Shown here piece by piece: positions 5,582 to 15,989 of a DNA stretch of 45,684 bases. Within the stretch, counting starts at the first letter, position 1; the number at the start of each line of letters is the position of its first letter. The notes below the pieces were generated by a model. The model searched no databases, was not told the origin of the DNA, and worked only from the letters and a program-made list of their open reading frames with translations. The stretch is from Rubrobacter sp. (GTDB lineage: Bacteria; Chloroflexota; Chloroflexia; Thermobaculales; Thermobaculaceae): contig JADDPP010000384.1 of assembly GCA_016781845.1 (NCBI GenBank), forward strand, positions 1-45,684, written 5' to 3'. The translations under genes were made by a program, and so were the position numbers.

Positions 5582-6325
5582 TTACGGCCAGCTAGTCTCG
5601 TTGATTGGCGTGAGGATGAGCTCCTGAAGCGCGGACTCGCGCGGGACGCGGACTGCGTAGAGAATGGCGTCCGCGACCGTCGAAGGCTCCTGCAGGTTCT
5701 CCTGATCCGGCATAGGGATGCCCTGCTCCGCGAAGCGGTCGAAGAAGTGGGTCCGCATGCCGCCAGGGATAACCGTCGTGACCCGGATGCCCTCCGCGCG
5801 CCCCTCAACCCCCAGGCCCCGGCTGAAGCCGATGAGTCCCCACTTCGAGGCGTGGTACGCGGAAGTGTTAGCCCAAGCGCGCACGCCTGCCGTGGACGCG
5901 ATGTTGATGATGTGGCCACCGCCCTGCCGCTTCAAGTGCGGCCACACCGCCTTCGAGACCAGGAATGCCCCGCGCAGGTTCACGTTCATTATCTGGTCCC
6001 ACTGCGCGACGGTGAGCTCCTCCACCGAGTAGGTGTGGTCCACCGCCGCGCAGTTCACCGCGATATCCAGCCGACCAAGCCGTTCGGCGGCCGAGTTTAC
6101 GGCAGCAAAGACCGCATCAGCGTCGCTGACATCGCACCCCAGCGCAACACTGTTCACGTCGTGACGGCGCAGCTCCTCGCTGACGCGCTCCGCCGCCTGC
6201 GCGTTGATGTCCACGCACGCGACAGCACACCGCGCTCCAGCGAACGCCTTTGCGGTAGCCTCTCCGAGACCGCTGCCCGCGCCGGTGATAAAGACGCCCT
6301 TGCCTTGTAGCTCCATGTTCATCAT
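5582..6325 (-). CDS. Short-chain dehydrogenase/reductase
   Basis: A classical SDR of about 247 residues, an NAD(P)-dependent oxidoreductase. It has the Rossmann motif TGAGSGLG (14-21), D39 after the second strand (VDI, usually favouring NAD), N114, S144, and the catalytic Y157 and K161 in YHASK. The common NNAG motif reads NCAA. The frame extends to 6397, but ATG 6325 has AAGGAG nine bases upstream and places the first strand normally, so I chose it. The substrate cannot be told; sugar or glucose dehydrogenase-like and 3-ketoacyl reductase-like SDRs all look like this. It follows the glycan operon by 52 bases, across a GTAGGGG-type palindrome, and may be read through from it. Confidence 0.87.
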   Translation of the reverse strand: MMNMELQGKGVFITGAGSGLGEATAKAFAGARCAVACVDINAQAAERVSEELRRHDVNSVALGCDVSDADAVFAAVNSAAERLGRLDIAVNCAAVDHTYSVEELTVAQWDQIMNVNLRGAFLVSKAVWPHLKRQGGGHIINIASTAGVRAWANTSAYHASKWGLIGFSRGLGVEGRAEGIRVTTVIPGGMRTHFFDRFAEQGIPMPDQENLQEPSTVADAILYAVRVPRESALQELILTPINETSWP

Positions 6326-6353
6326 GTCCTGGTACTCCTTAATACTTCGGAAA

Positions 6354-6380
6354 TAGGGGGGGTACACGGGCCCACCCCTA
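6354..6380. repeat. GTAGGGG-type palindromic element, copy A
   Basis: TAGGGG (6354-6359) and CCCCTA (6375-6380) are outer arms of an imperfect inverted repeat with further G/C pairing inside. On the minus strand it begins GTAGGGGTGGG, and its first TAG is the stop codon of the glycosyltransferase at 6378-7694. It belongs with the elements at 7727, 13560 and 33753. Confidence 0.6.
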
Positions 6381-7694
6381 CGGCGTACGTTTTCCAACAG
6401 TTGTTGCGGCCATCTTTGGGCGCGCTTCCCCGCGCGAGTGTGCTACGCTCCTGTACAGGTCTTCCATCCTGCGAGCGACGGTGGACCACGTGAACTCCTG
6501 CTCGACCCTCGCCCGTGCCGCTCGGCCCATCCGCAAGCGAAGCCGGGGCCGGGAGAGCAGCTCGCGCAGGGCGTCGGCGAGCGACTCCGGATCGCGAGGT
6601 GGCACGAGAAGACCGGTCACGCCATGCTCGACGGTGTGCGGGATGCCGCCGACCGCGGAGCCTATGACGGGCACCCCGCACGCCATCGCCTCCAGCGGGG
6701 TGAGGCCGAACGGCTCGTACCACGGTGTGGTTACCGCCACATCGGCGGCGGAGTAGTACAACCGCAGCTCGTCCGGCTGCCTGCGTCCGGTGAAGTCAAC
6801 GAGGTGTTCCACGCCCAGCTCCCCGGCAAGCCTGCGCAACACTCCTATCTCGGGCGTCGCTACCGGGTCCGGCTCGGCCGTCTCCCCCCCAACTACCAGC
6901 AACCTCGGCTGTGCGAGGGGAGAGTCACCATAGCCATGTTGATGTGGAACAAGCAGGGCGAGAGCGCGCACGATGTTCCGCACGTCCTTGCGCGGCAGCA
7001 TGCGACCCACGTACACGATGAGCAGAGCATCGGGGTCCAGCCCAAGTGCGCGACGGGCCTTTGCCCGATTGACCGGGTGGAACCGCTCCGTGTTGACACC
7101 GCCGTGTATGAGCGCGAGCCGGCTGGGGTCTGCTCCGTAGTCGTCAACCAGCTCGGCCACCTCGCAGGGGCACTGAGCGATTATGCGGTCTACCCTCCGT
7201 ACGATGCTCTCCTCCACTGCGACGCGCTCCGCCGGGCTGGTATCTGCGTGGCCCTGATGCCGGCGCTTCGTCGTGCCGAGAGCATGGAACGTGTGTACGG
7301 CAGGCACGCCTTCCAGCTTGCGCAACTCCGTCGCTACCCAGCCGGACATCCAGAAGTTGCCGTGCAGCACGTCGGGGCGCTCGCCCTCCAGCAGCCAGAG
7401 CCGCATAACATCATCGCGGAAGTCGGGCATGTACTGCCAGAGCTCATCTTTCGAGAGCAGTTGAGGCGGACCGGCGTCCACGTTTACCACGCGCATCCCC
7501 GGCCCCCAGTCCACCAGGCGCGGAGCGTACGGGTTGTCGCGCCGGGTGAGCACGTCTACCCGGTGTCCGAGACGGGCTAGCTCCCGGCCAAGCTCGTCAA
7601 CGTACACATTCTGCCCGCCCGCGTCCGCGCCGCCGAGCAGGGCGACGGGGCTTGCGTGCTCGCTGATGAGGGCTATGTGGAGGGGCAGCTGCAT
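6378..7694 (-). CDS. GT4-family glycosyltransferase (MshA/sucrose-synthase-like)
   Basis: A 438-residue retaining glycosyltransferase of the GT-B fold. The N-terminal nucleotide-free domain opens with GGADAGGQNVYVDELGREL, typical of the MshA/sucrose-phosphate-synthase-like branch of GT4. The donor domain has VGRMLPRKD (phosphate-contacting R231 and K236) and the E-X7-E pair E327/E335 in YEPFGLTPLEAMACG. It uses a nucleotide sugar, but the sugar and acceptor are not readable. It is the last gene of the heptose/glycan operon and most likely adds a sugar to the same envelope glycan. The start ATG has AAGGAA nine bases upstream. The stop codon is TAG inside palindrome copy A. Confidence 0.88.
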   Translation of the reverse strand: MQLPLHIALISEHASPVALLGGADAGGQNVYVDELGRELARLGHRVDVLTRRDNPYAPRLVDWGPGMRVVNVDAGPPQLLSKDELWQYMPDFRDDVMRLWLLEGERPDVLHGNFWMSGWVATELRKLEGVPAVHTFHALGTTKRRHQGHADTSPAERVAVEESIVRRVDRIIAQCPCEVAELVDDYGADPSRLALIHGGVNTERFHPVNRAKARRALGLDPDALLIVYVGRMLPRKDVRNIVRALALLVPHQHGYGDSPLAQPRLLVVGGETAEPDPVATPEIGVLRRLAGELGVEHLVDFTGRRQPDELRLYYSAADVAVTTPWYEPFGLTPLEAMACGVPVIGSAVGGIPHTVEHGVTGLLVPPRDPESLADALRELLSRPRLRLRMGRAARARVEQEFTWSTVARRMEDLYRSVAHSRGEARPKMAATTVGKRTP

Positions 7695-7757: not shown

Positions 7758-8705
7758 CTAAGACAACACTCGCTCGAACGCCCTGTTCCAGTCAGCGGTG
7801 AATCGCTCAAGGTTGAAGCGGTCTCGCGCGAGGGTGCGCGCGTTCTCTCCGAGGCGGCGGGCTTCGGCGGGGTGGGCGAGCAGGTGGCGCATCCTCTCAA
7901 TCAGCTCGTCCGGCTCACAGGAGATGTAGCCGTGAACTCCGTTCTCGATGACGGTCGGCAGCTCGGTGGTGGCGAGCGCCACGACGGGCATGCCGATGTG
8001 AAGAGCCTCGATGACGGAGAGGGGGAGGCTGGTGTAGCGAATCGGACTGTACAGAAAACGATACTCCGCGACCCGGAAGTGCAACTCCTGATACGCGAAG
8101 TCGCCGATAGGGTTCAACCCCTCGTTCCCGAAGCCCGCGATGTCGAGCGGAATCTGCTTGCGGGCCTCGATGAAGAGGTCGTGTCCGAGCGCGCGCCCCC
8201 GCTCGGGCATACTGTTAATCACGGTGATGCCGCGCTCCAGGTGGCCCTGGTACCGCACGCGCGGGTCTATCGCGACGCTGTGCTCAATCACAACGGTCGG
8301 GGTGCGGTTGTTGTCCCACATCAGCCTGTTGTAGTGCGTGACGTGTACGAGCAGAGTGCTGGGGTCATCCACAGGGTGTCGTGTGTCCGTAGCATGCGGC
8401 TTCGGTACGTTGTGCTGCAGGTAGATTTTGGGGAGCTTCTGTTGCTGCTCGGGGGAGAGTATCTCGAACTGGTCCTGGAAGTAGTTCTTCGGCGTCTGGA
8501 ATATGACCAGGTCGAGGTCGAGGTCTGACACTTCCTCCGCTGGGACATCGCACACATGGTCAGTCTTGAGCAGCCCCCGGCCCATACCGCCGTACCCTTC
8601 GGGGCGGTCGGGCTTCACCGGCAGGTACCACTGATGCGGAATATGCACGAGCGTGTTCAGATAGCTGCCGTGGATGCCCCAGATGAGTATCTTCAGCGGC
8701 CCCAT
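7758..8705 (-). CDS. Glycosyltransferase (GT4-like, GT-B fold)
   Basis: A 315-residue glycosyltransferase-like protein. It starts MGPLKILIWGIHGSYLN, includes VIFQTPKNYFQDQFE and IYLQHNVP, and its donor domain carries LPLSVIEALHIGMPVVAL (the Glu of the GT4 donor site), ENGVHGYI and a C-terminal helical tail. This resembles the family of envelope transferases often annotated 'glycosyltransferase family 1'. The frame is open much further upstream, but the ATG at 8705 has GGAGG four bases before it and shares one base with the preceding stop (TGATG), so translation is probably coupled. Position in the operon after three GT9 enzymes suggests it extends the same heptose-containing chain. Sugar specificity is unknown. 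Confidence 0.82.
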   Translation of the reverse strand: MGPLKILIWGIHGSYLNTLVHIPHQWYLPVKPDRPEGYGGMGRGLLKTDHVCDVPAEEVSDLDLDLVIFQTPKNYFQDQFEILSPEQQQKLPKIYLQHNVPKPHATDTRHPVDDPSTLLVHVTHYNRLMWDNNRTPTVVIEHSVAIDPRVRYQGHLERGITVINSMPERGRALGHDLFIEARKQIPLDIAGFGNEGLNPIGDFAYQELHFRVAEYRFLYSPIRYTSLPLSVIEALHIGMPVVALATTELPTVIENGVHGYISCEPDELIERMRHLLAHPAEARRLGENARTLARDRFNLERFTADWNRAFERVLS

Positions 8706-9778
8706 CAGACCTCCATCCCGCTGGCTGCAAGGAGGCGGCTCAACACTTCGTCGCACATGGAGAGGACAGTCTCGACCGGCAGCCGATGCAGCGCTGTCTC
8801 GCGGTCGCCGCCGAGCAGCTTGCTGGAGTCTATGGGCCGGTGGAGCTCGCGGTCGAGCGGGGCGAAGCGCTCCGGTGGTTCGGGGCCGAAGAGGACGACG
8901 CTGCGCGTGCGGGTGGCTGCGGCCATATGCGACGCGCCGGTGTCGTTCGTGACGAGCAGGTCGAGGCGGGCGAGCACCGCCGCTAGCTCTCCAATTCCCG
9001 TCTGGCCCGCGAGGTCGAGCACGGGATAGCGCATGATGCGGGCGACACGCTCTGTCAGCTCTCGCTCGCCCTCGCTCCCGGTAAGCACAAGTCGGGCGCC
9101 GTGGCGCTCGGCGAGCGCATCGCCCAGGGCCGCGAACTTCTCGGGGGGCCAGCGCCTGTTCGCTGCCTTGGAGCCGACGTGCATCCCGATCAGCGGGCCC
9201 CAAGAGCCGGGCGTCTGTGCGAGCAGAGCGTCCGCTTCCCGCTTTTGCTCGGGCGTCACGGTGAGGTCCAGATGCGTGCCCTGCCGCGGTGCGCCCAGCA
9301 GGTCGGTCAGCGTGAGCCACTGCAGGATTTCATGTCCGGTGTCGCTCGCAGGAAGGCTATACGTGAGTCGCTCGTCGCCCTGGCGTGCGAAGCCTGCTGT
9401 CACACGCGAGCCCAGCCGGGACACGACCTCGTTCGTGATGCTTCCGTTGCCGTGCATCTGCAGCGCGAGGTCGTAGCCGTACGCCTGCTGCTCCGCGAGC
9501 CACCGCTCGGTCCTCTCAGGCACGACCTCTACCTCCGGGATGCCGGGATAGCCGGGAAACTCCACGAACCTGTCTATGTAGTGACTTATATGCGGCACGA
9601 ACCCGCGCGCCCACGGCAGCCCAATGAGCGTGATCTCCGCCTGTGGAAAACGGCAGCGCAGCGCCCGGAACGCGGGCACGGACATCAGCAGGTCGCCCAG
9701 AAAGAGCGCGCGGAAGATCGCGATGCGCTGGGGCTCTGCATCCAGTACGGCGGGCGCAGGAAGAGTGTGAGGGGTCAC
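8705..9778 (-). CDS. GT9 heptosyltransferase-like glycosyltransferase, third in tandem
   Basis: A 357-residue GT9 (ADP-heptose:LPS heptosyltransferase family) protein. The N-terminal signature RIAIFRALFLGDLLMSVPAFRAL and the C-terminal donor part GPLIGMHVGSKAANRRWPPEKFAALGDAL, VLDLAGQTGIGELAAVL and LVTNDTGASHMAAA are diagnostic; the last carries the Asp/Gly/His loop that binds ADP. I use the GTG at 9778, which overlaps the preceding stop as GTGA. The longer upstream frame lacks domain content. Unlike its two neighbours it has no C-terminal four-Cys motif. The three tandem copies probably act successively on one glycan; which acceptor each uses is unknown. Confidence 0.88.
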   Translation of the reverse strand: MTPHTLPAPAVLDAEPQRIAIFRALFLGDLLMSVPAFRALRCRFPQAEITLIGLPWARGFVPHISHYIDRFVEFPGYPGIPEVEVVPERTERWLAEQQAYGYDLALQMHGNGSITNEVVSRLGSRVTAGFARQGDERLTYSLPASDTGHEILQWLTLTDLLGAPRQGTHLDLTVTPEQKREADALLAQTPGSWGPLIGMHVGSKAANRRWPPEKFAALGDALAERHGARLVLTGSEGERELTERVARIMRYPVLDLAGQTGIGELAAVLARLDLLVTNDTGASHMAAATRTRSVVLFGPEPPERFAPLDRELHRPIDSSKLLGGDRETALHRLPVETVLSMCDEVLSRLLAASGMEV

Positions 9779-10920
9779 AGGCGCGCCCCCTCGGCTGTTG
9801 AAGGCTGTAGATGGCCGTTCGCGCCTGCGCGGATGGAGGGGCGGGTGGGGAGCCTGCGTATCTCGTCCGCGTGCTCGACGAGATGGAGCGCCGCGTCCAC
9901 GACCTGCTCCGGTGGTATGTCGAGGCAGGGCTGGCCGATGGGGCACTCGAAGAGGTAGCACGGATGGCAGGGGGTCGGGACGCGCAAAAGCCTCGTCGGG
10001 GTCCGGCGTGGTCTCCACTGTTCCTCGTAGTCCGTGCCGGAGTACAGTATGACCGAGGGGGTGTCGAGCGCATCGGCGAGGTGCAGGGGGAGCGTGTTGC
10101 CGCACATTACGAGCGCGGCTGTTTCTACCAGCGCCGCGTATTCAGGCATCGTAGTGTCGCCTACCAGAGTGCCGACCCTCGGTGTACTCCCCGCGACCTG
10201 CCTTACTATCTCCGCTTCCCGCTCCACGCCGGTGACGAGCACGGGCATGCCTCGCTCCGAGAGGCTCCGCGCCACCTCCCGAAACCGCTCCGGTGGGTAG
10301 CGCCGAGCCTTCGCGCTCGCGCCGGGGTGGAGCAGGACGTACGGCGCGTCGGGGTCCAGTCCCGCGGAGCGCAGCAGGCTGGGAACGGCGGCGTGGGCGT
10401 CATCGGGAACGGCGACCACGAGCTCCCGGTGGCGGGCAACGAAGCCCAGGTGCTCCACGAGCCGCAGGTTGCGCTCGACCTGGTGAAGCTCGTCCGGTGC
10501 GGGCTGGAGCTGCGTCGAGAGGACGCTGCCTCCGAACTCCTTGGACTCGCCCGCTCGCAGAGGGATGCCTGCGAGATAGCAGACGTAGCCGGGCGGGTGT
10601 GGGGTCTGACTGAACGACGTAAAGACCAGCGCCGCGTCGAAGTTGCGCTCCGAGAGCAGCCGAATCAGCTCCATCTCCCGGGCCGGGTCGAACGCCATCC
10701 TGTTGCCCACGTCCTGCCACACTGGCCGCCACACGATGACATCATCTACCCACGGCAGCAGGGCTGCGCCCGTCGTGCCACCCGGCGTGCCGAGCAGCGT
10801 GATGCTCGCACCCGGTGAGGTCTCCTTGACCGCGCGCAACGCGGGGCCGAGCATCACGACATCGCCTATGTTGTCCAGCCTCACCGCGAGGATGTTGCGC
10901 GCCTGTAGCCACTCATTCAT
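9775..10920 (-). CDS. GT9 heptosyltransferase-like glycosyltransferase, second in tandem
   Basis: A 381-residue GT9 protein. Signature elements are ILAVRLDNIGDVVMLGPALRAVKE at the N-terminus, VLLHPGASAKARRYPPERF, TLVGDTTMPEYAALVETA and VMCGNTLPLHLADAL in the donor domain. Near the C-terminus four cysteines appear as C-x2-C-x4-C-x5-C (CHPCYLFECPIGQPC), the same spacing as in the next paralogue. ATG 10920 overlaps the preceding stop as ATGA and has GGAGG seven bases upstream. Its donor is presumably ADP-heptose made by the upstream hldE/gmhB products. The Asn in MCGNT replaces the usual Asp of the TNDTG loop, so its donor could differ. Confidence 0.88.
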   Translation of the reverse strand: MNEWLQARNILAVRLDNIGDVVMLGPALRAVKETSPGASITLLGTPGGTTGAALLPWVDDVIVWRPVWQDVGNRMAFDPAREMELIRLLSERNFDAALVFTSFSQTPHPPGYVCYLAGIPLRAGESKEFGGSVLSTQLQPAPDELHQVERNLRLVEHLGFVARHRELVVAVPDDAHAAVPSLLRSAGLDPDAPYVLLHPGASAKARRYPPERFREVARSLSERGMPVLVTGVEREAEIVRQVAGSTPRVGTLVGDTTMPEYAALVETAALVMCGNTLPLHLADALDTPSVILYSGTDYEEQWRPRRTPTRLLRVPTPCHPCYLFECPIGQPCLDIPPEQVVDAALHLVEHADEIRRLPTRPSIRAGANGHLQPSTAEGARL

Positions 10921-12050
10921 ACGGTTACCTCCGGTGCCGGTCGGCTGTATCGGGGCACAGCGCGTCGTGCCCCCACGAGACCTGACTCCTCCAGCAGTTC
11001 TTCCGCTGCTCTGATTACCATCTGCGGCGACACCTCGCGCAGGCACTCGTGGCTGTATGGGCAGACGCGGCTGTAGCAGATGCGGCACGGGACATCGTGA
11101 TGGAGCAGGCGGTGAGGCGCGCGCCACGGACCCCACTGCTCGGGCGGGTTCGTGAGCGCGAACAGGGCGACCACTGGGGTCTGGAGCGCGGCGGCCACAT
11201 GCATCGGCCCCGTATTGTTCGTAACCACTAGGTCCGCCGTCTCCACCAGGGCGCAGAACTCCTCGAAGGGGAGCGCGCCCGCCAGCCCCACAGCCTCGCG
11301 GCGCATCCGGCTAAGCACGCGCGTCACCAGATCTTCCTCGTCCGACGTGCCAGTGATTACTACCGAAGCGTTCAGCTCTTCCACCAGTCCGTCCGCGACC
11401 TTGGCGTACATCTCCCACGGATACGTGCGCGCGGGCATGGTGCAGCCGGGGTGTATCACAACCAGCGGTCTGTCGTCCGCGACGCCGCGCGCCCGAAGTG
11501 CGCCCGGAACCTGTGAGCGAGCCTCGGCCGGTACTCGCAGCACGAGATCTGTTTCCAGCGTGGTGAGGCCGATGGAGCTCACGAGGTCGAGACCCCGTTC
11601 CACCTCGTGCATCAGCCGCTCCGGGTGCTTGTGCCGCGTGGTGAGCAGCGAGCCGGGGCCGTCAATGGAGGCCGCGACCCGAAGGGGGATGTCAGCCAGG
11701 TAGCACATATATGCTGCAGGCAGGGGACTCTGTCGAAAGGAGGTGAAGATAACTGCTCCGTCGTAGCCGCCCTCCCTGAGCCGCTCGATCATCCGCTGCT
11801 CGCGGGCGCTGTCGTGCGGCAGGCGGCACCAGGGGTCCGTCCACGGCGCCTCGTACACGATGACCTCATCCACATCGGGATTGAGCCGTCCCACCTGCGC
11901 GCCGACCGGACTCGTCAGCAGCGTGAGGTGGACGCCGGAGAGCGACTTCTTGATGGCGTGCAGAGCGGGCGTGCAGAGGAGCACATCGCCCAGGTTGTCG
12001 AGGCGGACCGCGAGTACGCGCCTGACCATGCCCCACTGCTCGTCAATCAC
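10917..12050 (-). CDS. GT9 heptosyltransferase-like glycosyltransferase, first in tandem
   Basis: A 377-residue GT9 protein, closely related in layout to the following gene: RVLAVRLDNLGDVLLCTPALHAIK at the start, VVIHPGCTMPARTYPWEMYAKV, VGLAGALPFEEFCALVETA and VVTNNTGPMHVAAAL. Its end carries the same C-x2-C-x4-C-x5-C pattern (CRICYSRVCPYSHEC). Such Cys clusters occur in other GT9 enzymes and may be structural. GTG 12050 overlaps the hldE stop as GTGA, with GGAG eight bases upstream. This pair looks like a gene duplication. It probably transfers heptose to an envelope acceptor. Confidence 0.88.
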   Translation of the reverse strand: MIDEQWGMVRRVLAVRLDNLGDVLLCTPALHAIKKSLSGVHLTLLTSPVGAQVGRLNPDVDEVIVYEAPWTDPWCRLPHDSAREQRMIERLREGGYDGAVIFTSFRQSPLPAAYMCYLADIPLRVAASIDGPGSLLTTRHKHPERLMHEVERGLDLVSSIGLTTLETDLVLRVPAEARSQVPGALRARGVADDRPLVVIHPGCTMPARTYPWEMYAKVADGLVEELNASVVITGTSDEEDLVTRVLSRMRREAVGLAGALPFEEFCALVETADLVVTNNTGPMHVAAALQTPVVALFALTNPPEQWGPWRAPHRLLHHDVPCRICYSRVCPYSHECLREVSPQMVIRAAEELLEESGLVGARRAVPRYSRPAPEVTV

Positions 12051-13543
12051 AGTGGCGACTCCTGAAGGTTCCGGCTGGCGAGTGCAGCAATGCGATCTAT
12101 GACATCGCTCGTGCTATGACCATCGAGCAGGGGCAGTATCGCCACCTCCCCCCCAACCTCCTCCACCGCTTCGGCCTCCGGCAGCGGGCCGTCGGCGTAA
12201 TCCCCTCCCTTTACGTGTACGTGCGGACGGAGGGTGCGGATAAGCTCGGCGGGTGTGTCCTCGTCAAAGAGCACCGCGTGGTCTACGGAATCGAGCGCGG
12301 CGACGAGGGCGACGCGGTCGCGCTCGGAGTTCACGGGCCTGCCCGCCCCCTTGAGCCTTCGCGCTCCCCGGTCCGTGTTGACCCCGACGACGAGCACATC
12401 GCCGAGAGCCTTCGCCCTGCGCAGGAAGTTGACGTGCCCCGCGTGCAGGATGTCGAAGACACCGTTCGTGAAGACGATTCTGTGTCCGGCATTCCGAGCG
12501 TCCTCCACTGCCTGGACGGCGAGGTGGGGGTACCCCTCTTCCTTGCTCTGCAGCCGTGTGCCAACCGCCTGTAACAGCTCCTGGTGGGTGACCACCGCGG
12601 TGCGCTGCTTCGTCACTGCTACGCTTGCCGCGTCTATGCCTATCCGCGCGGCCTCGGTAACATCTCCGCCCGCCGCAAGGGCCAGTCCCATTGCCGCGAC
12701 GAAGGAGTCGCCTGCGCCGACATCCTTGGGTTGTGACACCGGATGAGCGGGCAGGTGTAGTGCCTGGTCGGTACGGCCAACGAGCAGCACGCCCTCCGCC
12801 CCCATCGTCACCGCAACGTGCTCGGCCCCCGTCATCGCGAGCAGCCGCCTGCCCGTCTCCTCCTCATCGGGCAGGGATACCCCTTGCTCCTTACCTCCGC
12901 TCCAGCCCACTGCCGCCCGCGCCTCGAGATGGTTGGGGGTGAGCACCGTGGCGTTCACGCTTCGGTAGCGTGGGAGGTTCTTCGAGTCAACAAGCAGGAC
13001 GCTGGGCCGGGACCTCCGCAGCTCACTGAGTCGGGCGAGGAGTGTCTCCGAGAGCACGCCGTAGTCGTAGTCGGACACCACCACCACGTCGCACTCGACA
13101 AACGCGCGCTCCAGGTTCGCGAGCAGCCGGTCGTGGACTTCGAGAGGGCAGTTACGGGTGTCGCCCTCGTCGAAGCGGACGACGTACTGACTGTCCGCCA
13201 GGATGCGTAGTTTGTGCAGAGTGGAGACTGCGTCATCCTCCACCAGGCAGGAGGTGTCCACTCCTGCCTGGTCCAGCGCGGCGCGCAGATGGTTCCCCGA
13301 GGCATCTGCGCCTATCATCCCCAGAAGGCTGACACGCCGGGCGCCGAGCGCGCGGAGGTTCGCAGCCGTGTTCGCCGCTCCGCCGGGCGTCCGCTCCTCC
13401 ACCGTCTTGTTCACGACGGGCACAGGCCCCTCCGCGCACAACCGGGAGGCCGTGCCCTCCAGGTAGCTGTCGAGCATCACGTCCCCGATAACGAGGGCGT
13501 GCAGGTCGCCGAAACGCCGCACGAGGTCGAGCGGGGGGGTCAT
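12047..13543 (-). CDS. hldE: Bifunctional heptose 7-phosphate kinase / heptose 1-phosphate adenylyltransferase
   Basis: HldE catalyses two steps of ADP-D-glycero-D-manno-heptose synthesis: ATP-dependent 1-phosphorylation of heptose 7-phosphate, and adenylyl transfer to heptose 1-phosphate after GmhB has removed the 7-phosphate. The 498-residue product shows the PfkB-type kinase domain (about 1-320) with GGAANTAANL, TPNHLEA and the catalytic DVGAGDSF (D279). The nucleotidyltransferase domain (about 340-498) has FTNGVFDILHAGH, with the HxGH motif at 367-370, and VVGVNTD. ATG 13543 overlaps the gmhB stop as ATGA. Both domains appear complete. GmhA (isomerase) and HldD (epimerase) are not in this window, so the heptose configuration finally used is unknown. 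Confidence 0.95.
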   Translation of the reverse strand: MTPPLDLVRRFGDLHALVIGDVMLDSYLEGTASRLCAEGPVPVVNKTVEERTPGGAANTAANLRALGARRVSLLGMIGADASGNHLRAALDQAGVDTSCLVEDDAVSTLHKLRILADSQYVVRFDEGDTRNCPLEVHDRLLANLERAFVECDVVVVSDYDYGVLSETLLARLSELRRSRPSVLLVDSKNLPRYRSVNATVLTPNHLEARAAVGWSGGKEQGVSLPDEEETGRRLLAMTGAEHVAVTMGAEGVLLVGRTDQALHLPAHPVSQPKDVGAGDSFVAAMGLALAAGGDVTEAARIGIDAASVAVTKQRTAVVTHQELLQAVGTRLQSKEEGYPHLAVQAVEDARNAGHRIVFTNGVFDILHAGHVNFLRRAKALGDVLVVGVNTDRGARRLKGAGRPVNSERDRVALVAALDSVDHAVLFDEDTPAELIRTLRPHVHVKGGDYADGPLPEAEAVEEVGGEVAILPLLDGHSTSDVIDRIAALASRNLQESPL

Positions 13544-14202
13544 GAGAGGTCTCCAGGTGCGGAATGGCGCACACGAGGACCTGCCCCTACGACATCCAGG
13601 CACCAGCTCTCGGGCAGGTATCTCATGTCCACGTCGGTCGCCCTACTCTCTACCGCTCGGATGAGTCGCAGGGCATGAAGGGTATCGCGGGCGACGTAGT
13701 GGGGCCGGCGAATTGGAGTGGCAGGTGGCGACTCCGTGCCGAGGTCCACGAGCACAGTGCGGCAGCCCGCGCGGTTGCCTGCTTCGACATCATCCAGGAT
13801 GTCGCCCACGAACCACGAGCGTTCGAGCTCGATGTCAAGCTCATCTGCGGCCTGCAACAGCATGCCCGGTTCCGGCTTGCGGCAGGAGCACTGGACCGCG
13901 AGCTCGGCCACGACGCCCTCCGGGTGGTGGGGGCAGTGGTATACACCATGAAGCTTTACGCCCAGACGGTCCAGCTCAGCCGCGAGATGCTCGTGCATCA
14001 GCTTAAGGTCGGCGTCTGTGAACAGCCCGCGCGCGAGGCCGGACTGATTTGTGATGAGCGCAAGGAGGAAACCGTGCCCCTGGAGCGCACGCAACTCGGG
14101 GCCGAGCCCCTCATACAGGACCAGTTCGTCGGGGCGGGTGGGGTAGTGGCGTGTGTGGATGAGCGTGCCGTCCCGGTCCAGAAAGAGGGCCGGCTGACTC
14201 AC
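13540..14202 (-). CDS. gmhB: D,D-heptose 1,7-bisphosphate 7-phosphatase
   Basis: GmhB is a HAD-superfamily phosphatase that removes the 7-phosphate between the two HldE reactions. Visible motifs are FLDRDGT (nucleophile and acid Asp), TNQSG, the zinc-site pattern CPHHPEG and CSCRKP, and GDILDDVEAG. A GTG at 14211 is possible, but the GTG at 14202 has AGGAAG eight bases upstream and is preferred. The protein is some 30 residues longer at the C-terminus than typical GmhB. That tail (after about LIRAVES) is partly encoded by a GTAGGGG-type palindrome at 13560-13590, so it is probably an acquired extension with no catalytic role. It is the first gene of the operon and is joined to hldE by a 4-base overlap. 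Confidence 0.92.
   Translation of the reverse strand: MSQPALFLDRDGTLIHTRHYPTRPDELVLYEGLGPELRALQGHGFLLALITNQSGLARGLFTDADLKLMHEHLAAELDRLGVKLHGVYHCPHHPEGVVAELAVQCSCRKPEPGMLLQAADELDIELERSWFVGDILDDVEAGNRAGCRTVLVDLGTESPPATPIRRPHYVARDTLHALRLIRAVESRATDVDMRYLPESWCLDVVGAGPRVRHSAPGDLS
13560..13590. repeat. GTAGGGG-type palindromic element, copy C, inside the gmhB 3' end
   Basis: On the minus strand the segment begins GTAGGGGCAGGTCCTCG. It closely resembles copy D at 33753-33779, which on the minus strand begins GTAGGGGGTAGGTCCTCG. The second arm here has decayed (ATGGCGC side). It is translated as part of the GmhB C-terminal tail. Confidence 0.5.
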
Positions 14203-14281
14203 TGCGCCCACTTCCTACATAGATGGCTTGCGTACGCTCGATGCGCGCTCTCTTGCTTCATGTCCGGCAGCCCCCGTGGCA

Positions 14282-14299
14282 CGCTGGGCGGTCCCAGCG
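14282..14299. other. Stem-loop in the gmhB leader
   Basis: CGCTGGG (14282-14288) and CCCAGCG (14293-14299) form a perfect 7-bp GC-rich stem with a 4-base loop, about 80 bases before the gmhB start. No U-tract follows in either direction, so it is not a classical terminator. It could be an attenuating leader hairpin for the glycan operon. Confidence 0.4.
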
Positions 14300-14348
14300 G
14301 CTCTTACTCTAACCACGAGCATGCTACCGCTGACGTGTACCGTTAGCA

Positions 14349-14364
14349 TTGTGCGTTTGCACAA
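14349..14364. promoter_or_regulatory. Palindromic operator-like site 1 before the glycan operon
   Basis: TTGTGCGTTTGCACAA is a perfect 6+4+6 inverted repeat. A near-identical site lies at 14391-14406 with its centre 42 bases away (four turns of DNA). It lies about 150 bases upstream of gmhB, as expected for a dimeric regulator site. Confidence 0.55.
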
Positions 14365-14390
14365 AGGATTTCTGTGACTACCAGTTGCTA

Positions 14391-14406
14391 TAGTGCGGTT
14401 GCACAA
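14391..14406. promoter_or_regulatory. Palindromic operator-like site 2 before the glycan operon
   Basis: TAGTGCGGTTGCACAA matches site 1 at 14 of 16 positions and keeps the GTGC/GCAC core. It begins immediately after the stop codon of the CdaR-like regulator gene. The regulator encoded next door is the natural candidate to bind both. Confidence 0.5.
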
Positions 14407-15600
14407 TCACGCCGCGCTGGACTGGAGGGAGCGCAGGGCGAGGGCGAGGCGGATCTGCACCGCGGCGTCGAAGTGGCGGGGGTCCAGGCCGGTCAGAGAG
14501 CCTATCTTGTCGAGCCGGTAGCCCAGGGTGTTGCGGTGTATCGAGAGCGTGTGAGCCGTCTTCGAGGGGCAGCAGTCCTGCGCGAAGAACGCCTCCACCG
14601 TTTCGAGTAGCTCAGGCGAGGAGTCGAGTGGGCTCAGCAGGTGGGTTGCAAGGTCCACCTTGGTTCGCTCGTCGGGCACCCCCACGAAGGCGGCGATACC
14701 GAGCGCATCCAGGCAGTGGACGCAGTTGGGCCCGTGGAAGCGGCGCCCGAGCGAGAGCGCGGCGCGCGCGTCCTGGTAGCTCTGCCCGAGGCCACCCAGT
14801 CCGGGGTGGTAGCGCCCGATGCCGATGCTTGCAGGGGAGCGGGTGTCTGAGCGCAGCCGGGACAAGAGCGCGGCCGCCGCTCGCTTCAGTGCGTGGAGGT
14901 TCGCCCATGAAGGACTACCCGTGTCCTGTGCGCCCTCGTCTCCCGCCCAGGTGCGCAGGCTCCTCGTGTTGCTCGCTTTGAGGACAGCGACTTCACCGTT
15001 GCCTATGTAGCCGCAGATGGTGTCGTTCGGCAACATGAAGAAGCCGACGACGCTGCTGATAACGAGCTGCTCGCGCCGCCGGACCTGCGCCTCTGAAGGT
15101 TTCGGGCCGGAGCCGTCCGAGGCAAGGATGTACTCGGAGGCGTCAATGAGAATAACAGCGCGAGGGGGAGCGAGGTCCATCCCGAGTATCTGCGCCTGGC
15201 GGAAGATCGCCGCCTCGTCTCCGACCGCGCCGTGGAGCAGGTCGTGAATGAACTTGTTCTTCAGCTCATGCTGGTTGGGCAGGCTGTCCACGACCGTCGT
15301 CTGGTGTACCATCAGATCAACAACCGCTTGCGCGAGTCGCTGCGAGATCGTTTCTCCACCGGGTGGCGGCAGCACCAGCGCCTCGCCGTACTCACCATCC
15401 AGGCTCACGGAAACTCGCACCGGCTCCTGTTCGAGGTGTGCCAGGGCATCGTCCGCCAGCTGGCCCAGCGCGGCGGGCTCGCTACTGGCGAGCACAACGC
15501 CACGCGAGTCGAGCACGTACACGGGCGCACACAGAAGCTCGGCCGTTCTCTCCGAGACTCTCTGCGCGATATGACCGAACCGGCCCGTCATCACAGCCAT
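14407..15600 (-). CDS. CdaR/PucR-type transcriptional regulator
   Basis: A 397-residue one-component regulator. The N-terminal part (about 4-120), with IAQRVSERTAELLCAPVYVLD and GVVLASSEP, matches the sugar-diacid recognition domain of CdaR. The middle is the degenerate GGDEF-like CdaR region. The C-terminal end has the PucR helix-turn-helix: TAHTLSIHRNTLGYRLDKIGSLTGLDPRHFDAAVQIRLAL. E. coli CdaR responds to glycerate/glucarate-type acids; the ligand here is unknown. The frame opens at 15666, but ATG 15600 has GGAGG six bases upstream. It is on the same strand as, and 204 bases before, the glycan operon, and two palindromes fill part of that gap. I infer it regulates the operon, its own gene, or both. 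Confidence 0.85.
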   Translation of the reverse strand: MAVMTGRFGHIAQRVSERTAELLCAPVYVLDSRGVVLASSEPAALGQLADDALAHLEQEPVRVSVSLDGEYGEALVLPPPGGETISQRLAQAVVDLMVHQTTVVDSLPNQHELKNKFIHDLLHGAVGDEAAIFRQAQILGMDLAPPRAVILIDASEYILASDGSGPKPSEAQVRRREQLVISSVVGFFMLPNDTICGYIGNGEVAVLKASNTRSLRTWAGDEGAQDTGSPSWANLHALKRAAAALLSRLRSDTRSPASIGIGRYHPGLGGLGQSYQDARAALSLGRRFHGPNCVHCLDALGIAAFVGVPDERTKVDLATHLLSPLDSSPELLETVEAFFAQDCCPSKTAHTLSIHRNTLGYRLDKIGSLTGLDPRHFDAAVQIRLALALRSLQSSAA

Positions 15601-15989
15601 CGCAGACCTCCCCAGCCTCCAACTGAGGCTAGGAGCGATGGTAGCGTAGCGCCCGTAACTTGGCAAGGGCCGGAGCGAAGCGGAGAGGCGCGCCGGATTT
15701 TAGAGGAGGGTGTCGGATAGCAGTGTTAGGGGGATGCCGGGGTGTGAGTTTGCTGGGATGAACCAGGAGGACGCGTTTACCGGGATGGCTGAGTTGTGAA
15801 GCCGTTTCCTCCCTCGATGAGGAGCGGCGGCTTCTGCCGGGCGGCCTAAGCCCCAGGGCTGCACGAGGGGGCCGGCTCTCGTCCGGATGCCCTCCTTTGG
15901 GCACGCCTCGCGGGAGCTTCGCTACTTCACCTGGGCAAGATGTACCTGAGACGAGCATACAGCGGCTTACCGAGGCTGCGGTCGTGCCC
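15601..15989. other. Non-coding, GC-rich structured intergenic region
   Basis: I see no gene here. Apart from the CdaR promoter, the stretch 15700-15960 is rich in potential stems: GAAGCCG (15798-15804) with CGGCTTC (15828-15834), enclosing CCTC/GAGG; AGCCC/GGGCT near 15850-15861; and TGCCC/GGGCA near 15888-15903. An open frame on the minus strand (15629-15958) has low-complexity Pro/Arg/Ser content, no Shine-Dalgarno and no recognisable domain, so I do not call it. It could be a dispersed non-coding repeat or an RNA gene transcribed with the methyltransferase. No tRNA, RNase P, SRP or tmRNA hallmark is present. Confidence 0.45.
15638..15666 (-). promoter_or_regulatory. Sigma-70 type promoter for the CdaR-like gene
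   Basis: On the minus strand TTGCCA (15666-15661) and TACCAT (15643-15638) are separated by 17 bases. The start site would be near 15631, giving a leader of about 30 bases before ATG 15600. Consensus match only. Confidence 0.5.

Follow-up and report, generated by a model that had tools for sequence, protein, structure and literature searches.

Twin palindromes between a CdaR-type regulator gene and a heptose glycan operon as a predicted, conserved operator pair

Between a gene for a PucR/CdaR-type regulator and an operon for a predicted heptose-containing glycan we found two similar palindromes, which represent a real and conserved candidate operator pair as judged from comparisons of sequence. 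They lie in the window, by which we mean the whole analysed stretch of 45,684 nucleotides from Rubrobacter sp. (Chloroflexota; contig JADDPP010000384.1). Very probably the two palindromes together serve as the operator of the CdaR-type activator (PucR family) encoded next to them, which would switch on the heptose glycan operon. The features of the locus are listed in Table 1.

Table 1. Features of the regulator locus and the heptose glycan operon in the window.
Feature	Position	Strand	Remarks
PucR/CdaR-type regulator	14407..15666	-	HTH_30 C terminus, GGDEF_2 middle, weak Diacid_rec N terminus
Distal palindrome (predicted operator 1)	14391..14406	-	TTGTGCAACCGCACTA on the - strand, TAGTGCGGTTGCACAA as forward read
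Proximal palindrome (predicted operator 2)	14349..14364	-	TTGTGCAAACGCACAA on the - strand, TTGTGCGTTTGCACAA as forward read
Degenerate -35 region ATGCTA	14344..14349	-	shares last base of operator 2
-10-like hexamer TAGCAT	14321..14326	-	22 nt past operator 2
gmhB-like HAD phosphatase	13540..14211	-	first operon gene
hldE-like gene	12047..13603	-	fused PfkB kinase and cytidylyltransferase-like domain
GT9 gene	10917..12050	-	heptosyltransferase family
GT9 gene	9775..11136	-	listed ORF overlaps neighbour; true start probably lower
GT9 gene	8705..10105	-	listed ORF overlaps neighbour
Glycosyltransferase	7758..9320	-	HGSY-type in panel; listed ORF overlaps neighbour
GT4 glycosyltransferase	6378..7694	-
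Short-chain dehydrogenase	5582..6397	-	conserved at same operon place

Both palindromes, TTGTGCGTTTGCACAA and TAGTGCGGTTGCACAA, were found exactly where the original prediction had placed them, with 14 of 16 positions identical. The arms form a perfect 6-bp match around 4 bp in TTGTGCGTTTGCACAA and match at 5 of 6 positions in TAGTGCGGTTGCACAA. The predicted distance of 42 bp between their centres holds for the window and needs a small correction for the relatives, among which 43 bp was the most frequent spacing. Along the minus strand the order is regulator gene, distal palindrome (abutting the stop codon of that gene), 26 bp, proximal palindrome, 22 nt, TAGCAT and gmhB. Within the window, chance statistics were modest. 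One pair of like palindromes (at least 5 of 6 arm positions paired, at least 14 of 16 positions identical, starts 16-100 bp apart) was present, compared to a mean of 0.02 in dinucleotide shuffles, 2 of 100 of which reached at least one. The consensus with up to 3 mismatches matched three times (one match being the first site read on the reverse strand) at a shuffle mean of 1.00; since 5 of 100 shuffles reached 3 matches, the single motif by itself stands out only weakly in the window. The exact form TTGTGC-N4-GCACAA occurred once in the 3.58-Mb assembly, and no further twin sites were found in the genome at E<=5 beyond the window pair and its reverse strand. We consider conservation among relatives to be the decisive evidence.

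The regulator gene, which probably starts further in than the listed ORF, encodes the C-terminal PucR helix-turn-helix (PF13556, HTH_30; 72 bits, cut-off 27) and a GGDEF-like domain found in many PucR members (PF17853; 60.6 bits, cut-off 24.5). The Diacid_rec domain (PF05651) reached 22.5 bits against a cut-off of 23.6 and spanned 50 of 134 profile positions. The proposed assignment of the regulator as CdaR-type was borne out by HTH_30 and GGDEF_2 and by 23% identity to E. coli CdaR over the whole length (E 2e-25). A structure model (mean pLDDT 78) matched PucR-family structures in the middle and C-terminal parts alone, and top fold and sequence matches for the GGDEF-like and HTH part were MabR (Rv2242; 9f80) and BAD_0249 (3onq). 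The fold search gave the family and no ligand clue for the N-terminal domain; MabR differs in this domain, which is globin-like according to the available part of its description. In a phylogenetic tree the regulators from Chloroflexota and Cyanobacteria clustered apart from four CdaR proteins, a placement that is unsure because of long branches.

For the comparison among relatives we collected regulator loci from class genomes (29 of 158), named genomes (35 loci) and larger stretches, which gave 71 loci and 52 after removal of duplicates. In each locus we searched from -60 to +800 bp of the regulator stop for the best pair of 16-mers resembling the consensus, with the spacing left free between 20 and 80 bp; this search is the unbiased spacing test. 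A pair above the floor was present in 50 of the 52 loci. Twenty-five of these scored at least 21 of 26, and 20 of the 25 were spaced by 42-44 bp (43 bp in 14, 42 bp in 4 and 44 bp in 2), with 29, 65, 35, 30 and 32 bp found once each. An even spread would put approximately 5% at 42-44 bp, and among the 25 lower-scoring loci 5 were found there. A leave-one-out scan with a PWM (spacings 30-56), itself built from pairs spaced 42-44 bp, gave 36 of 52 loci scoring at least 18 at 42-44 bp, including one (L061) with its best score on the opposite strand. Once true pairs were resolved, no well-scored pair at 31-33 or 52-54 bp was left. The original prediction had named missing conservation in relatives as its refutation; instead, spacing, sequence, position and downstream genes were kept and the pair tracked the regulator. 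A second regulator copy of genome G080 (L064 and L104) carried a pair approximately 42 bp apart in which, by eye, the inner palindrome was one base shorter.

Downstream genes were checked by tblastn with eight heptose/glycan proteins and the regulator for the 34 best pairs. A heptose or glycosyltransferase gene followed just downstream on the same strand in 31 of the 32 informative pairs; L072 and L101 were set aside as contig ends, and L095 was read on the longer L149. The sole miss, L046 (7174-7275), kept regulator and pair and had no heptose gene within 5.9 kb downstream, and here the operon may have been deleted or relocated. The contig of L072 (JAAUTF010000264.1) is labelled 'Gracilibacteria', and its sequence matches class genome G058, so that it is likely mislabelled. 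One gmhA query gave no match in the genome of the window, which shows little given an incomplete assembly.

We further built a sequence-only model (R1) from the 34 pairs, spaced 42-44 bp, and searched genomes with it blind to the regulator. Among 400 genomes drawn from the phylum, 19 carried the pair (E <= 1e-3) and 18 the regulator (E <= 1e-60); both were present in 16, the regulator alone in 2, the pair alone in 3 and neither in 379. After removal of 10 training genomes, the corresponding counts for the 390 held-out genomes were 6, 2, 3 and 379 (Fisher p 4.9e-10, with related genomes not being independent). In all six held-out Chloroflexota with both (G170, G182, G320, G334, G338 and G341) the pair headed a gmhA or glycosyltransferase gene of a heptose operon, and in G170 the regulator was encoded on a different contig from the pair. 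Ten cyanobacterial genomes encoded the regulator, and the pair was found in nine of them at E <= 1.8e-7, including the training genome G167; the tenth (G165) showed no R1 pair at E <= 0.1. All eight non-training cyanobacterial pairs were located 55-65 nt before a GT9 gene opening a GT9-GT-GT4-gmhA operon; hldE was visible in 6 of the 8 loci, and the stretch read contained no regulator gene. All 16 held-out pairs examined, namely these eight, the six from Chloroflexota and two at lone gmhA-like genes of G082 and G083, were spaced 42-44 bp and 12 of them had the -10 at 22-23 nt; this spacing is support and not proof, because R1 was built on such spacings. Within the class, 25 of 158 genomes carried the pair at E <= 1e-5 and 24 of the 25 also the regulator; this co-occurrence is in part circular, as R1 was trained on many of these pairs.

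Several single observations concern the arrangement of these loci. In Leptolyngbya-like genomes the pair adjoins the regulator gene (L056-L060), and in Nostocales it is located far off, fronting the same operon (L182-L190); the regulators of the two groups form two separate clades in the tree. Genomes G082 and G083 encode a lone gmhA-like SIS gene off the main operon with its own twin (L135 4701-4795 and L136 7212-7302). In G035 (L140 9035-9129) and G017 (L142 9256-9347) a TTGGGCAATTGCCCAA twin was present without the regulator at E<=1e-60. A divergent PucR-type gene with approximately 32% identity over the C-terminal part is encoded about 1-2 kb upstream; the pair comes after this gene and response-regulator genes, and no heptose genes are near. 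From these two genomes, the twin layout may serve other targets as well. Another R1 match (G457, E 6e-4) lacked both heptose genes and the regulator at E<=1e-60 and is probably due to chance.

The gar, gud and cdaR promoters, which we take to be the targets of E. coli CdaR in sugar-diacid catabolism, showed a similar arrangement. In E. coli K-12, garP carries ATGTGCATATGCTCAA and, at 42 bp, ATTAGCATTTGCACAA, followed by TG and by TATACT 22 nt past the site. The gudP promoter carries CAGGGCTAATGCCAAA and, at 42 bp, TTGTGTTGTTGCACGG, both degenerate, followed by TG and TATACT at 22 nt. In front of cdaR itself, a strong inner site (TTAGGCATTTGCACAA) is followed by TG and, at 22 nt, by TATGCT, and the outer site is weak. 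The composite score of each of the three promoters was unreached in 1000 shuffles. Of 128 control tiles covering the remainder of the 26 kb, the best scored 22.5, compared to 31.2 for garP and 26.2 for gudP; the cdaR composite (22.2) does not beat this tile, and its inner site with the -10 was unreached in 1000 shuffles. Within the 26 kb, the top R1 match was the cdaR promoter and the next that of garP; gudP scored only at E 9.9. By eye, no such -10 was present at that distance at the divergent garD start. The window twin shares this predicted operator and promoter layout with garP, gudP and cdaR. E. coli CdaR (SdaR) resembles the window regulator over its full length and differs in its targets, which belong to sugar-diacid catabolism and not to heptose glycan synthesis. 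Control of sugar-diacid (glucarate, galactarate, glycerate) genes was not apparent for the window regulator and its relatives; conserved neighbours and putative targets in trans were heptose and glycosyltransferase genes.

Plasmid records with a CdaR match numbered 155, and of the 7 loci examined one gave an R1 match spanning both sites (Mesobacillus, E 0.0011, with a poor inner site). In this locus of Mesobacillus foraminis (Bacillota; L217 5105-5196) a perfect palindrome 3' of the CdaR gene is followed by the degenerate inner site, by TACAAT 22 nt on, and then by a permease and a glycerate kinase gene. The P. nitroreducens locus showed a single palindrome (E 0.15), that of P. putida S12 a degenerate palindrome by eye, and the other four loci gave no palindrome match. 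One record (L216, NZ_AP026896.1) is a 4.94-Mb Aeromonas 'plasmid' and is likely mislabelled.

These distributions bear on the question of which protein reads the twin. Another transcription factor travelling with the operon might bind it, with the CdaR-type gene being a mere neighbour, and the class genomes in which the regulator had no strong pair (5 of 29, besides 2 of 18 in the phylum draw and 1 of 10 cyanobacteria) would fit such an arrangement. We consider this unlikely, as pair and regulator co-occur even when they are apart (Nostocales, G170), the regulator-blind search matched almost only regulator-bearing genomes, and the known targets of E. coli CdaR carry the same layout.

The promoter anatomy argues for activation. 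In the 34 best pairs, we searched the interval 10-33 nt beyond the inner palindrome for the hexamer closest to TATAAT. Its start lay at 22 nt in 21 pairs and at 23 nt in another 9, together 30 of 34. Directly after the inner palindrome TG was conserved (T in 32 and G in 34 of the 34 pairs). A 17-bp spacer would put the start of the -35 hexamer on the last base of the palindrome, so that the hexamer reads (A)TGnnn. In the window, transcription would start at approximately position 14314. Because the -10-like hexamer sits 22-23 nt past the inner palindrome, the proximal and distal palindromes are centred at approximately -42.5 and -84.5 of the predicted promoter, and the pair therefore reads as an activator operator. 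Judged from the -10-like box, the layout resembles a class II activated promoter, with a site near -41.5 over a poor -35. Two other candidates from the same region were rejected: the scan found no terminator-like site for the regulator gene, and the operon-leader hairpin CGCTGGG-ACCG-CCCAGCG (window 14273-14291, 7-bp perfect) was no more stable than shuffles (z 0.82). The overlap of the inner palindrome with the -35 region could also suggest a repressor operator, where the protein over the -35 blocks RNA polymerase until a ligand lifts the block. This appears quite improbable, as the -35 is degenerate and a consensus scan of the window gap found no sigma-70 promoter that would work unaided, which fits an activated promoter. 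Precedent in the family likewise favours activators: according to the available part of PMC7652997, PucR-family members studied so far are activators, with B. subtilis PucR acting as both.

As to how the two sites would work together, the original prediction had offered looping or cooperation. A regulator bound at both sites might bend the DNA into a loop, in which case spacing would matter for helical phase alone, and 42-44 bp is indeed near four turns. Such a loop should tolerate changes by a whole turn, however, and no well-scored pair showed them; a 43-bp loop would also be very short. We therefore abandoned looping with free helical phase as the leading explanation and regard a loop as very improbable. 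That the palindromes arose by chance or form a terminator of the regulator gene can practically be dismissed: the 6-bp arms are short and the lone motif is weakly unusual in the window, but conservation and occurrence in trans refute this, and no terminator-like site was present.

Rigid side-by-side binding of the activator fits better than flexible looping because whole-turn shifts in spacing were absent among the well-scored pairs. The likeliest working would be cooperative binding to both palindromes, in which the unit on the inner site contacts RNA polymerase. Each palindrome would be occupied by one dimer (or by a pair belonging to a larger oligomer), and the bound units would sit four turns apart on one side of the helix. 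The inner unit at approximately -42.5 would lie over the degenerate -35, replace the missing -35 contact and recruit RNA polymerase to TAGCAT, and the outer site at approximately -84.5 would strengthen binding. An inducing ligand would be sensed by the N-terminal domain of the regulator, and the activator would induce transcription of the operon of gmhB, hldE and glycosyltransferase genes, whose product would be a glycan containing heptose. The Hill coefficient of 1 given for an E. coli CdaR biosensor in the available part of PMC4551912 counts against cooperativity, though it concerns the inducer.

The nearest described case appears to be the pair of inverted repeats bound by GabR, a PucR-family regulator of Corynebacterium glutamicum. 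The available part of PMC7652997 places two inverted repeats within -87 to -23 of the gabTDP promoter, both required for strong binding, and describes GabR as an octamer in solution. Both systems combine a PucR-type regulator (here a predicted activator) with two inverted repeats, which in the case of the window are conserved in sequence among relatives. As far as that source goes, GabR differs from the window regulator in having no GGDEF-like domain, and its target is GABA use and not glycan synthesis. The GabR centres would be at most 34 bp apart, because two 21-bp repeats fit one 55-bp fragment, compared to 42-44 bp here.

Both the protein family and the concept of an operator made of twin inverted repeats are known already. 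Apparently new, in that the literature searched gave no account of them, are the heptose glycan operon as a target and the 42-44 bp grammar, including its occurrence in several phyla and at the CdaR genes of E. coli. In the open PMC literature we found no description of a PucR/CdaR-type regulator of heptose genes, in agreement with the prediction that such control was undescribed, and none of a 42-44 bp twin operator or of a fixed CdaR promoter grammar across phyla or at E. coli CdaR genes; this is not proof of absence. We lean towards a wider reading, in which TTGKGCA-N2-TGCMCAA, a second palindrome at 42-44 bp, TG, and a -10 after 22-23 nt form a general CdaR-type activator signature across Gammaproteobacteria, Bacillota, Chloroflexota and Cyanobacteria. 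In Chloroflexota and Cyanobacteria it would have been taken over, together with a regulator clade, for heptose glycan synthesis, and a single rigid oligomer bound to both sites would account for the fixed spacing.

From the twin palindromes an operator and a promoter can be predicted for a family with few known binding sites, and heptose glycan synthesis in two phyla, Chloroflexota and cyanobacteria, becomes linked to a putative CdaR-type activator. The binding sites of E. coli CdaR, called undetermined in 2020 in the available part of PMC7652997, become directly testable in a laboratory strain. The conserved spacing might further be a clue to the docking of PucR-family oligomers on DNA.
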